DNA from: Diaminobutyricimonas aerilata
GTDB taxonomy: Bacteria > Actinomycetota > Actinomycetes > Actinomycetales > Microbacteriaceae
Reading direction: 5' to 3'
Length of the DNA: 64,000 nucleotides
NCBI RefSeq assembly: GCF_002797715.1
Contig: NZ_PGFF01000001.1
Location: forward strand, 2,627,304-2,691,303
A model generated the notes under the pieces. The model was not told the DNA's origin and made no database searches. It was given only the letters and a program-made list of their open reading frames with translations. The translations under genes were made by a program, and so were the position numbers. Position 1 is the stretch's first letter. Every line of letters begins with the position of its first letter. Positions 28,249 through 37,952 of this stretch are shown here, piece after piece.

Positions 28249-28746
28249 TCACGCGGCAGGCGCGAGGAACTCCTCCCACTGCGGTTGCGCGCGCTCGACC
28301 CCGCGCACCAGCCAGTAGGCGCCGTGCGGGGCGCGCGGCTTGATCCGCAGCGTCCAGCCCATCTCCTGCGGGGTGCGGTCGCTCTTGATGTTGTTGCACT
28401 TGAGGCAGCAGGCGACCAGGTTCTCCCAGCTGTCCGCTCCCCCGCGCGAGCGCGGCTGCACGTGGTCGATGGTGGTCGCGGAGGCCCCGCAGTACGCGCA
28501 CCGGTTGCTGTCGCGGCGCAGCACGCCGCGGCGCGAGACCGGCACGGCCCGCCCGTTCTGGATGCGCACGTAGCGTCTCAGCACGATGACCGACGGGCGG
28601 TCCCAGCTGCCCGAGGTGCCGAACACGGGGTGCTCGGAATCCTGGGCGACGATCGACGCCTTGCCGTTCATCACGAGCACGAGTGCTCGCTTGAACGACA
28701 CGACCGCGAGGGGCTCGTAGCCCGCGTTGAGGACGAGTGTGCGCAT
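28249..28746 (-). CDS. HNH endonuclease family protein
   Basis: 165 residues. The first 75 (LVLNAGYEPLAVVSFKRALV ...) are a conserved N-terminal domain; the HNH motif follows as CAYCG, TIDHVQPRSRGG, WENLVACCLKCNNIKSD, giving two zinc-type CxxC knuckles, the catalytic histidine near residue 94 and the structural asparagine/histidine. This short HNH type is widespread in actinobacterial chromosomes and is not restricted to phages. AGAGG precedes ATG 28746. An intrinsic terminator and a 33-codon ORF lie just upstream, suggesting attenuation. Confidence 0.9.
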   Translation of the reverse strand: MRTLVLNAGYEPLAVVSFKRALVLVMNGKASIVAQDSEHPVFGTSGSWDRPSVIVLRRYVRIQNGRAVPVSRRGVLRRDSNRCAYCGASATTIDHVQPRSRGGADSWENLVACCLKCNNIKSDRTPQEMGWTLRIKPRAPHGAYWLVRGVERAQPQWEEFLAPAA

Positions 28747-28827
28747 GGTCAGCCTCTCGAAAGGGCCTGGACGGCTTCCAGACATTCGAACCGGGGTGGT
28801 GCAAGCGGAACCGCCGTACCCGGGAGG

Positions 28828-28862
28828 CAAACAAAAAGGCGCCGTCGCGAACGACAGCGCCT
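28828..28862 (-). terminator. Intrinsic terminator upstream of the HNH gene
   Basis: On the minus strand: stem AGGCGC-(T)-GTCG, loop TTCG, CGAC-(G)-GCGCCT, then TTTTTGTTTG. Its first base is the last base of the small ORF stop. It lies 82 bases before the HNH start, so transcripts from further upstream must read through it to express HNH. Confidence 0.8.
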
Positions 28863-28963
28863 CAGAGGTCACGAGCGTGCTGGTGCACACTCGCGAGAAT
28901 GCAGTGCCGTATGTGGAACAGAACGCGCGCATCCACGGGTTGGATGTTGCGCTCTCTGAGCAT
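28862..28963 (-). CDS. 33-residue small ORF, possible leader peptide
   Basis: ATG 28963 has GGGAGAG at good spacing. The peptide is rich in His and Arg (VLFHIRHCILASVHQHARDL at the end). Its TGA shares its last base with the first base of an intrinsic terminator. Upstream, TACCCT (29004-28999) could be the -10, and a hairpin (29002-28973) reaches into the ribosome binding site. This fits either a tiny gene or a regulatory leader for HNH. No homologue is known to me. Confidence 0.45.
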   Translation of the reverse strand: MLRERNIQPVDARVLFHIRHCILASVHQHARDL

Positions 28964-28972
28964 CCGGCTCTC

Positions 28973-29002
28973 CCTGGTCTCGAGTTTCCGAGAGCACCAG
29001 GG
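28973..29002 (-). promoter_or_regulatory. Hairpin at the 5' end of the small ORF transcript
   Basis: Stem CCTGGT/ACCAGG with inner CTCG/CGAG and a three-base bulge. It ends next to the GGGAGAG site, so folding could limit its access. The putative -10 TACCCT overlaps the outer stem base. From here to the NlpC terminator (about 29005-29216) I see no gene. Confidence 0.4.
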
Positions 29003-29216
29003 TAAACCACATCCGCGGCACGCCATACCACAGGCGCGCCGGTTCACCTGCCGTTCAGCGAGCGGATGCCCGGGGCGGCGTTCCGCTCGGGTTTCCGTGG
29101 AGGGCGGCATTGAGCGCGGACATCCTGAGCGACGCGCCGTTACGAGGGCGCGACGACTGGGGTGTCGCGGAAGAAGTCCGCTCTCAGTGCCGGACACCTC
29201 CCGCCCGGGCACAACA

Positions 29217-29267: not shown

Positions 29268-30044
29268 TCAGATGCCGTACCGCACGAAGTAGTGGTTCGA
29301 CGTGTAGATCGGACGCTCGTTCACGACGCGGCCCGGCATGGGGGCGTCGATGAAGTTGCCGTTGCCGGTGTAGATGCCGACGTGTCCGCCGCCGTCCGTG
29401 ATGACGAGGTCGCCCGGAAGCGCGTCGGCCGGCGCGATCTTCGTGCCGTTGGCTCCCTGGCGGGCCGAGGAGTGCGGCAGCGAGATGCCGAACTGCGCGT
29501 ACACGTACATCGTGAGGCCGGAGCAGTCGAAGCCGGCCGGGGTCGCGCCGCCGTAGACGTAGGGGACGCCGAGGTACTGGCGGGCGACGTTGACGACCTG
29601 GTTGCCGTCGAAGCTCGGGTAGGGCGGGTTCGCGAGGAAGTCGGATGCGCCGGGTCCGCTGTAGGAGGCGAGCTGCGTGCGCTGCTGCTCGCGCTGGGCG
29701 GCGATCTGGCGGGCCTGTTCGGCGGCGCGCGCCGCGGCGAGCTCCTCCGGGGTGGTCGCGGTGAAGTTGTCGCGGGTGGCGACGTTCGCGGCGGCGTCGG
29801 CCGGCACGATCACGTTCTGCGAGTTCGACTCGCGGAACTCGGCGGCCGCGGCATCCGATTCGGCGTTCGCCGTCGTGGTGGTGCTGAACGCGTAGGCCGG
29901 GAGGGCCAGCGTGGCGACCAGGCCGGTGGCCAGGGTCATCACGGCCACGTTCTTGGCGACGCCCTTGCGGGTGGACTTCGCGGTCACGGGGGTGGTCTTC
30001 TTCAGGTCGCCCGCCGGTCGGCGCGGTTCCATGGCTCGGGTCAA
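29268..30044 (-). CDS. Secreted NlpC/P60 peptidoglycan endopeptidase
   Basis: 258 residues. A long basic N-region precedes the signal helix (VAVMTLATGLVATLALPAYA, cleavage near AYA), then an Ala/Gln-rich coiled-coil-like linker (EELAAARAAEQARQIAAQRE) and the NlpC/P60 domain from about 145. Catalytic cysteine is in TPAGFDCSGL, histidine in GGGHVGIY, third polar residue in GNFIDAP. It cleaves wall peptides, probably between D-Glu and the diamino acid. Start is TTG 30044, chosen because GGAG lies eight bases upstream; ATG 30032 has no such site. A long leader precedes it. Confidence 0.9.
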   Translation of the reverse strand: MTRAMEPRRPAGDLKKTTPVTAKSTRKGVAKNVAVMTLATGLVATLALPAYAFSTTTTANAESDAAAAEFRESNSQNVIVPADAAANVATRDNFTATTPEELAAARAAEQARQIAAQREQQRTQLASYSGPGASDFLANPPYPSFDGNQVVNVARQYLGVPYVYGGATPAGFDCSGLTMYVYAQFGISLPHSSARQGANGTKIAPADALPGDLVITDGGGHVGIYTGNGNFIDAPMPGRVVNERPIYTSNHYFVRYGI

Positions 30045-30185
30045 GAGGGAGTCTCCAGGCCTCAGCAGCTCTAGGGAGCCACCCCATCCAATCGTGTCGA
30101 GTTCACGTCGCGACCCGGGAGATGAGCGGATGAGGCATCCCGGACCCGGTCCTGTCGGCCGTGTGCTGGCCTGTAGGACTCCCCC

Positions 30186-30214
30186 ACGCTACGTGAAGGT
30201 AACGAAATTGTCAC
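30186..30214 (-). promoter_or_regulatory. NlpC/P60 gene promoter GTGACA-N17-TAGCGT
   Basis: On the minus strand -35 GTGACA (30214-30209) and -10 TAGCGT (30191-30186), 17 bases apart. Predicts a start near 30179 and a G-rich leader of about 135 bases before the TTG codon. The leader lacks conserved c-di-AMP riboswitch blocks that I could recognise. Confidence 0.55.
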
Positions 30215-30249
30215 GCCCGTACCCCGATTGACCCCCGAACGGGGCGTCG

Positions 30250-30267
30250 GTCCTCCTTGAGGAGGAC
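30250..30267. other. Perfect hairpin GTCCTCC-TTGA-GGAGGAC in gap
   Basis: Lies in the 240-base stretch between the NlpC promoter and the end of the DtxR gene. No T-tract follows on either strand, so it is not a classic terminator; it may protect the DtxR mRNA 3' end. Nothing else is seen in this gap. Confidence 0.45.
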
Positions 30268-30456
30268 AGGCGATCCGGGATGCGGCAGGGCCGAAAGTCC
30301 CGGAATCCCGCGGAATCCTGCCGGGTCGCGCGAGCTCGAGCGACTTCCCGTCCCATAGTGCGGGTGAAACGCGTCCGCACCCGCAATTCGCGACGGGAAC
30401 TCGGGCGCGACGCGGCGACGGAAGGACCCGGCGAGCGCCGTGACCGGCGCCGACGC

Positions 30457-31149
30457 TCAGGCGGCGAGGTAGATGTGCGTCGCGACCTCGACGGGCAGCT
30501 CGAGCCCGGACTCGACGCCGTCGACCTGCACGAGCACGTAGGTGCCGGCGGCGGAGACGCGGGCGGTCGCGCCCGGCTTGACGCCCGCATCCTGCAGCTG
30601 CTGCAGCAGCTCGGGGTCGAACTGCACCGGCTCACCGAGGCGGCGGATGACGCCGACGGCTCCGTCGGGCGACTGGGCCACCACCCGGGTGAGGCTGATG
30701 ACACCGTCCATGAAGCGCGGGGTGGGGCTGTCGCCGAGCTCGTCGAGGCCCGGGATGGGGTTGCCGTACGGCGACTCGGTGGGGTGGTTCAGCATCTCGA
30801 GCAGGCGGCGCTCGACCTGCTCGCTCATCACGTGCTCCCAGCGACACGCCTCTTCGTGCACGTACGCCCAGTCGAGGCCGATCACGTCGGCGAGGAGGCG
30901 CTCCGCGAGGCGGTGCTTGCGCATCACGTGGGTCGCCTTGCGGCGACCGTCCTCGGTGAGGGCCAGGTGGCGGTCGCCTTCGACGACGACGAGGCCGTCA
31001 CGCTCCATGCGGCCGACGGTCTGCGACACGGTCGGGCCCGAGTGCCCGAGACGCTCCGAGATACGGGCGCGCAGCGGAACGATGTTCTCCTCCTCGAGAT
31101 CGAGGATCGTGCGCAGGTACATCTCGGTCGTGTCGACGAGATCCGTCAT
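30457..31149 (-). CDS. DtxR/IdeR-family metal-dependent regulator
   Basis: 230 residues in three domains: winged helix (RARISERLGHSGPTVSQTVGRMERDGLV, about 27-54), metal-binding/dimerisation domain with the conserved HVMRKHRLAERLL and EACRWEHVMSEQVERRL blocks (about 75-115), and a C-terminal SH3-like/FeoA domain. The Cys-Glu-His-Met set (CRWEHVM) is the iron-type site of DtxR and IdeR, not the MntR type. ATG 31149 follows GGGAGGGC. It is divergent from the anchored-repeat transporter operon. The control sites in between look like Zur boxes, not iron boxes. Confidence 0.93.
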   Translation of the reverse strand: MTDLVDTTEMYLRTILDLEEENIVPLRARISERLGHSGPTVSQTVGRMERDGLVVVEGDRHLALTEDGRRKATHVMRKHRLAERLLADVIGLDWAYVHEEACRWEHVMSEQVERRLLEMLNHPTESPYGNPIPGLDELGDSPTPRFMDGVISLTRVVAQSPDGAVGVIRRLGEPVQFDPELLQQLQDAGVKPGATARVSAAGTYVLVQVDGVESGLELPVEVATHIYLAA

Positions 31150-31203
31150 CGGTGCCCTCCCTCTGGCGTCGTCACAGCCTACCCAATTGAGGGTCGCCTT
31201 ACC

Positions 31204-31218
31204 TGATAACGATTCTCG
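31204..31218 (+). promoter_or_regulatory. Zur-like box 1
   Basis: TGATAACGATTCTCG, resembling the actinobacterial Zur consensus (TGA-TAACGATTATCA type). It shares 13 of 15 bases with box 2 on the other strand. Lies 55 bases upstream of the DtxR start and upstream of the transporter operon promoter. Confidence 0.55.
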
Positions 31219-31236
31219 CCTGTGCGCCATTCCGAA

Positions 31237-31266
31237 TTGACAGCGGTTCACGAAGCGCGCTAGTTG
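31237..31266 (+). promoter_or_regulatory. Promoter of the anchored-repeat transporter operon
   Basis: -35 TTGACA (31237-31242, a perfect consensus) and a TAGTTG-like -10 (31261-31266) 18 bases on. Zur-like box 2 begins four bases later, covering the likely transcript start. Confidence 0.55.
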
Positions 31267-37026: not shown

Positions 37027-37952
37027 TGAGTCCGCTCGACTTCCTCTCCGACCTCCTCGACCCCGACCTGGCGTTCCTCGGCAAGGCCCTCGCGGTCGCC
37101 GTCATGTCGTCGATCGTGTGCGGCGTGGTGGGCACCTTCGTGGTGCTGCGCGGCATGGCGTTCATCGGCGACGCCGTCGCGCACTCCGTCTTCCCCGGGC
37201 TCGCGATCGCGTTCGTCGTCTCGGGCAACCTCGTGCTCGGCGGCACGATCGCGGGGGTGCTCACGGCCGTGCTCGTCGCCGTGTTCGCGCAGAACCGTCG
37301 CGTGAAAGAGGACTCCGTCATCGGGGTGTTCTTCGTCGGCAGCTTCGCGCTCGGCATCGTGATCCTCGCGCAGGCGCCCGGGTACGCCGGCAGCCTGCAG
37401 CAGTTCCTGTTCGGGTCGATCACCGGCATCCCCGACAGCGACCTGCTCGTGGTGGGCGGCATGGGCCTGCTCGTGCTGCTCGTGCTCTCCGCCGTGCACA
37501 AGGAACTCGTCGCCGTGAGCCTCGACCGGGAGTCGGCGCGTGCGATGGGGCTGCCCGTGTTCGCGCTGGATCTGGTGCTCTACGTGCTCGTCACCCTCGC
37601 CGTGGTGATCAGCGTGCAGACGATCGGCAACATCCTCGTGCTGGCCCTGCTCATCACCCCTCCCGCGACCGCGCGGCTGCTCACCGACCGGCTCGGCGTC
37701 ATGATGCTGCTCTCCCCCGTGATCGGCGGACTCGGCGCGCTCGTCGGTCTCTACCTCTCGTGGGCGTGGGAGGTGCCCACCGGCGGCACGATCGTGCTCG
37801 TGCTCACGGGCGGGTTCCTGCTCGCCTGGTTCCTCGCGCCGCGCGGCCTGCTCGGCAGGCGCCTCGCCCGGCGACGTGCGGATGCGCACACCGAGGACGC
37901 GCTCGCACCGGGAGCGGACGACGCCCCTGTGCCGGCGGAGGCGCGCGCATGA
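37026..37952 (+). CDS. Anchored-repeat ABC transporter permease (ABC-3/ZnuB-like)
   Basis: 308 residues with eight or so TM helices of the ABC-3 family. Typical segments: VLRGMAFIGDAVAHSVFPGLA near 40, SVIGVFFVGSFALGI near 97, and the cytoplasmic coupling region ESARAMGLPVFALDLVLYVL near 175. TGATG overlap with the ATPase gene. The permeases of this class import Zn, Mn or Fe. Confidence 0.94.

Follow-up and report, generated by a model that had tools for sequence, protein, structure and literature searches.

A conserved leader ORF that meets an intrinsic terminator and carries a conserved AUA codon: a probable ribosome-occlusion attenuator of a PLMP-HNH nuclease gene in Microbacteriaceae

In a stretch of 64,000 nucleotides from the Diaminobutyricimonas aerilata genome, here called the window, a short leader ORF ends on an intrinsic terminator that stands ahead of the gene for an HNH nuclease. 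We consider that this leader is probably a cis-acting, translation-dependent attenuator of HNH transcription, in which occlusion of the terminator by a ribosome is combined with a slow AUA codon that acts as a gate, such that the nuclease would probably be made only if the ribosome clears the rare codon before the terminator folds. Ribosome-occlusion attenuation is known mainly from enterobacterial pyrBI, and the best reading of the present leader is as a pyrBI-like occlusion attenuator with a rare-codon gate, differing from pyrBI in the gene that it would control and in the signal that it would use. Sequence comparison shows the order of the elements, the overlap of ORF and terminator, the selection on AUA and the absence of a promoter from the spacer; translation, termination and the coupling between them are inferred.

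All features of the locus lie on the minus strand. The leader promoter has its likely -10 box, TACCCT, at 28999-29004, and is followed by the ribosome site GGGAGAGCCGG (28964-28974; an GGGAGAGCC-like site is conserved before the ORF) and by a 33-codon ORF at 28862-28963 with the product MLRERNIQPVDARVLFHIRHCILASVHQHARDL. The TGA stop codon (28864-28862) overlaps the first stem bases of the terminator (28836-28863), a 12-bp stem followed by TTTTTG, with the U-tract reaching to about 28828. An earlier note on this DNA had picked out the 33-codon ORF with its good ribosome site, the meeting of its end with the start of the terminator, and a distance of 82 bases to HNH; all of these hold, the last as the interval from the end of the U-tract at 28828 to the HNH ATG at 28746. 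The same note had called the peptide His/Arg-rich, which is true of the window peptide (4 His and 5 Arg among 33 residues) but not of its relatives, in which the His/Arg content is not conserved. The hairpin that it had placed ahead of the ORF is not supported, since the strong form needs bases of the -10 box (29004-28999) that are likely untranscribed, and only a weak one is left from the likely start site (z -0.55). When the window leader is folded, the terminator stem alone reaches -21.9 kcal/mol (z -4.6), a hairpin within the final third of the ORF (28869-28896) reaches -20.9 kcal/mol (z -6.1), and the whole 181-nt leader is far more stable than its shuffles (z -6.7). The HNH gene itself occupies 28249-28746 and is preceded by the ribosome site GAGAGG (28753-28758), an TCGAGAGG-like site being conserved here in the alignment.

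Upstream regions were gathered from 162 loci, 80 of them named, including loci of Microbacterium, Curtobacterium, Cryobacterium, Leifsonia, Clavibacter, Subtercola and Agromyces. Of the genomes sampled, 210 of 249 in the family and 114 of 148 in the class carry the HNH gene. Nearly every Microbacteriaceae locus has the same order of an GTTANCCT -10 box, an ORF with a Shine-Dalgarno sequence, a terminator, a spacer and HNH, and a terminator was detected in nearly all Microbacteriaceae leaders. The ORF frame is open in 61/61 gapless aligned leaders, with stops in 25 of them in the +1 frame and in 17 in the +2 frame. The leader is found once per genome, at HNH only, and no regulon sharing such leaders emerged, as the strong matches of the models R1 and R2 lie only at HNH in each genome. 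Rfam gave no match in the window at the gathering threshold, and at an E value of 10 it gave only sub-threshold, chance-level matches in the leader region, none of them credible. A limited literature search found no prior description of the leader or of AUA-gated attenuators, an absence that is not proof of novelty.

Among 109 Microbacteriaceae leaders the stop codon abuts the terminator in 46 and lies inside it in 32, and the ORF runs through the terminator in 30, so that ORF and intrinsic terminator overlap or abut in 108; the one ORF call that ends upstream is probably a wrong choice of ORF. The control frames +1 and +2 (n=218) behave quite differently, with 10 abutting, 11 inside, 119 running through and 78 upstream, and stops at or inside the terminator thus number 78/109 for the leader frame against 21/218 for the controls. 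The earlier note had proposed looking for the ORF-terminator pair in related genomes, and had named a lack of conservation of the ORF as one outcome that would speak against it; the pair proves to be kept throughout Microbacteriaceae and to recur in f7 and f15, two further families of Micrococcales whose leaders differ in sequence from those of Microbacteriaceae. There the leader ORF reads across a terminator and into the beginning of HNH, with an overlap of 4 nt in 19/28 cases in f7 and of 19 nt in 11/11 cases in f15.

TANNNT occurs ahead of the ORF in 108/109 leaders, against 42 expected from shuffling, and the extended form G.TANNNT in 85/109, against 13.6 expected; typical -10 forms are GTTAGCCT, GTTAACCT or GTTACCCT, some 37-46 nt before the ORF start. 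The spacer between terminator and HNH carries TANNNT in just 6/109 leaders, fewer than the 40.7 expected from shuffling. A promoter between 28828 and 28746 serving as the only HNH promoter had been named in the earlier note as what would speak against its proposal; the window spacer holds no promoter-like element, and the depletion there, together with the near-universal TANNNT ahead of the ORF, indicates that HNH has no second promoter of the TANNNT type.

By these comparisons, AUA codons are the strongest conserved feature of the leader. In 76 non-redundant leaders there are 73 in-frame ATA triplets and only 5 in the two alternative frames together, the strongest bias of all 64 triplets; the leaders with at least one ATA number 57 for the ORF frame and 3 and 2 for the alternatives, counts to be read in the light of codon 18 being one inherited motif in many leaders and thus not phylogenetically independent. 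Where isoleucine is encoded at codons 17-19, it is by ATA in 61 of 62 cases and by ATC in 1. In the window the AUA is codon 18 (28910-28912), the proposed translation-speed gate, and codon 18 is its position in most genera; overall it is found at codons 4, 17-19, 24-25 or 28-29, differing between clades (Microbacterium has it at codon 4 and Subtercola at 19 and 25, and still others at 28-29). The f7 leaders, which are unrelated in sequence and contain two to four ATA each, are the cleanest independent case of the bias, with 60 ATA in frame against 12 out of frame, and ATA is there the most phase-coherent triplet (63/87 pairs). AUA is one of the least used codons in the two backgrounds taken for comparison, with 0.8 per 1000 in the genes of the window (13 of 521 isoleucine codons) and 0.4 per 1000 in the HNH genes. 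The frame bias, the varying positions and the independent bias in f7 argue that selection acts on the codon AUA, and neither on the amino acid that it encodes nor on a single nucleotide motif.

The peptide itself is not what is conserved. The pN/pS ratio is about 0.9 in frame 0 and the same in the other frames, so there is no visible constraint on the amino-acid sequence of the leader, and a conserved arrest peptide was rejected as the main reading on the same ground. About a quarter of the Microbacteriaceae leaders are without AUA, and many of these are His-rich (3.9 His codons per leader without ATA, 2.2 with it); the f15 leaders (L030, L227-L237) have few AUA and up to 12 His, as in HHHCVHHHHVH. 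AUA alone is therefore not the whole signal, and His codons may fill its role in the leaders that lack ATA and in f15. The Ser codons AGT/AGC and the His codon CAC are also raised in frame.

Two RNA structures lie within the ORF. The first (28930-28946 in the window: CAUCC, loop AACCCGU, GGAUG; general loop NNACCNN) covaries, with four pairs changed on both sides and 21 both-side-change cells against 5.3 in shuffles. The second, in the last third of the ORF between the AUA and the terminator, is strong in the window but on average less stable in other leaders (median z -1.5 across 83, 24 of them below -2), and may be a pause hairpin for RNA polymerase. Constrained folding of 13 leaders with a ribosome footprint at successive codons left the terminator near its free value with the ribosome at early codons, and brought its probability to about zero in all 13 with the ribosome near the stop or on the last few codons; no antiterminator was predicted in these leaders at the different ribosome positions. 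Since in these folds only a ribosome on the last few codons abolishes the terminator, and one further upstream does not, the proposal of the earlier note that ribosome occupancy decides whether HNH is transcribed is the best-supported reading of the leader.

A model for how such an attenuator would operate can be given on this basis. According to the model, a promoter of its own drives the leader ORF, which is also translated, as its ribosome site and conserved open frame suggest. When no ribosome occupies the stop or the few codons before it, the terminator is predicted to fold and RNA polymerase to stop before HNH. A first ribosome that follows closely behind the polymerase would instead already cover the 5' arm of the hairpin as the polymerase makes the 3' arm, the terminator would be kept from forming, and HNH would be transcribed. 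The rare AUA would slow the ribosome and so set a threshold, efficient decoding relative to the polymerase leading to HNH expression and slow decoding to termination. The direction of this effect follows from two precedents: in E. coli, termination dropped from about 90% to less than 10% when the distance between a stop codon and the terminator behind it was shortened from 28 bp to 5 bp (PMC4824070), and in pyrL a ribosome-stalling motif upstream of the terminator raised termination in the absence of EF-P (PMC5021804). Ribosomes are reported not to repress terminators that lie less than 100 bp into a coding region, except where the polymerase pauses (PMC4824070), and the window terminator begins 100 bp after the leader start codon; pausing of the polymerase at the leader hairpins is therefore probably needed, and these hairpins may serve to synchronise polymerase and ribosome. 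The input that the cell reads may be the supply of tRNA-Ile2, the overall rate of translation or the speed of the polymerase; TilS, the maker of the AUA-reading tRNA, is present in the genome. The only tRNA gene in the window is one for tRNA-Arg (anticodon tct; 37716-37811, plus strand).

Among the known systems close to this leader is E. coli pyrBI, in which the pyrL ORF likewise runs into the terminator and a close ribosome blocks the hairpin with no antiterminator involved (PMC4824070, PMC5021804). There, pausing of the polymerase reports on UTP and the genes controlled are those of pyrimidine synthesis, whereas here a rare AUA is conserved, the gene encodes a nuclease and a U-rich pause tract is not evident. 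Since the window leader has no U-run between promoter and terminator, we regard it as pyrBI-like in its working and do not file it as a member of the pyrBI type. An alternative is that occlusion operates as proposed but that what is sensed is the speed of the polymerase, as altered by NTP shortage, DNA damage or pausing, with the AUA merely keeping the default state off. This we hold to be possible though doubtful: it has the precedent of pyrBI, the ORF hairpins could serve as pause sites, and a single AUA, as found in many leaders, suits a fixed delay better than a graded sensor, but the lack of a visible U-rich tract in the window leader tells against it, and the clusters of two to four AUA in f7 suggest that decoding itself is read. 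In a classical attenuator, by contrast, a ribosome stalled at AUA or His codons would favour an antiterminator, and HNH would be induced by a shortage of charged tRNA-Ile2 or tRNA-His. Slow regulatory codons are indeed the hallmark of the his, leu and ilv attenuators, whose leader ORFs likewise hold regulatory codons sensitive to tRNA supply, and the His runs of f15 resemble a his leader. Those attenuators, however, need antiterminator helices, an ORF that ends before the terminator and codons that match the product of the operon, none of which is seen here: folding of the 13 leaders predicts no structure that competes with the terminator, which persists for every ribosome position ahead of the last few codons, the ORF does not stop well short of the terminator but on it or past it, and HNH is not a biosynthetic gene. 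We therefore judge this mechanism quite unlikely.

The remaining alternatives concern the nature of the ORF and of its codon. ATA might be conserved as a piece of an RNA or DNA motif, CATACGGCACAGC, instead of as a codon signal. In favour of this, one group of genera shows nucleotide-level conservation around codon 18, but other genera carry ATA elsewhere and still in frame, and the f7 leaders show the same phase preference in unrelated surroundings, which leaves this explanation very unlikely. The ORF could also be a free-standing gene for a small protein, to which its ribosome site, its start codon and the terminator at its end would be suited, HNH then having another promoter. This is most improbable given the pN/pS ratio, leader sequences that are unrelated between families, the depletion of -10-like sites in the spacer and the occurrence of the leader only with HNH. 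The antibiotic-responsive uORFs of actinobacteria (ABC-F, WhiB7) share with the present leader a conserved uORF and a terminator ahead of the gene, but their arrest depends on drug and peptide, whereas here the peptide is not conserved and the gene is not one of resistance.

The geometry known from pyrBI is thus found across Microbacteriaceae and in two other Micrococcales families, with a selected rare codon in place of a nucleotide signal. Selection on a rare codon independently of amino acid and position would be direct evidence that decoding speed serves as a regulatory input. Knowing when HNH is switched on would also provide a first handle on its role, a literature search having found no report on the function of this conserved PLMP-HNH nuclease.

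The HNH protein (165 aa) matches PF01844, and the NCBIfam entry that fits it best is that for the HNH part of IscB. In an AlphaFold2 model (mean pLDDT 86) residues 1-66 superpose on the PLMP domain of HfmIscB with a VIA-align Z of 7.8 and an rmsd of 1.4 over 52 residues, and residues 65-141 match the HNH domain of Cas9/IscB (67-141 against Cas9 HNH, Z 8.3), Z values near 8 being moderate and an IF3-N-like fold being shared more widely. On the strength of these model matches, we assign it as a PLMP-HNH protein without RuvC, an architecture that we take to be the one called IshB in the OMEGA literature. The PLMP-HNH architecture is thought to be ancestral to IscB and Cas9. IshB-like proteins have been mentioned as a possible source of the HNH domain of IscB (PMC12477157). 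What it shares with IscB, IsrB and IshB is the PLMP-type domain at its N-terminus and the HNH domain of IscB/Cas9 type; it differs from the OMEGA proteins in being without RuvC, bridge helix and TI domain and in its single-copy, syntenic, housekeeping position. Nearly every genome has one full-length copy of the gene in conserved synteny, and no mobile context of the IS200/IS605 type was found among the 80 loci. A DtxR-type regulator lies upstream in 69/80 loci and NlpC/P60 in 54/80, this neighbourhood falling in the window at 29268-31251 on the minus strand, the same strand as HNH. Two other identities were considered and set aside: MSMEG_1275 of a report on mycobacterial cell death, whose catalytic residues lie near 258-281 (PMC9416677), and membership of a defence system, as only the HNH domain aligns to the PtuB, PDC-M01B and Cas9 models.

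A further structure stands at the ribosome site of HNH itself. In the window it is a two-helix hairpin (28756-28790) with the loop AGCCG, whose outer helix enters the ribosome site, and a hairpin with an AGCC[G/A] loop 17-20 nt before the HNH start is present in 110/162 loci, against 0.5 in shuffles. Nine of its pairs are changed on both sides, a number that 0/500 shuffles reach. The covarying hairpin is the RNA in evidence at this site, where no longer conserved RNA or guide came to light. The PLMP domain of IsrB contacts the hairpins at the end of the omega RNA, one of which contains the Shine-Dalgarno sequence just upstream of the IsrB ORF (PMC9581776), and this analogy suggests that the HNH protein may bind its own leader hairpin. 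Such binding by the PLMP domain, which is speculative, would form a second layer of control separate from the attenuator. A more far-reaching combination, in which AUA decoding senses the supply of lysidine-modified tRNA-Ile2 and so gates HNH, and in which PLMP binds its own AGCC[G/A] hairpin as a relative of the omega RNA terminal hairpin, we consider unlikely; if it were true, an IshB-like housekeeping gene would illustrate a way for a guide RNA to have arisen from a 5' leader. The AGCC hairpin was not seen in f7 or upstream of viral relatives of HNH. Many viral contigs (L262-L341) encode full-length relatives of the PLMP-HNH protein at 35-50% identity, with a full-length match to phrog_16726. 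Hairpins with an AGCCA loop also occur outside the family, at L065-L067, L070-L071, L073, L082, L175 and L180.
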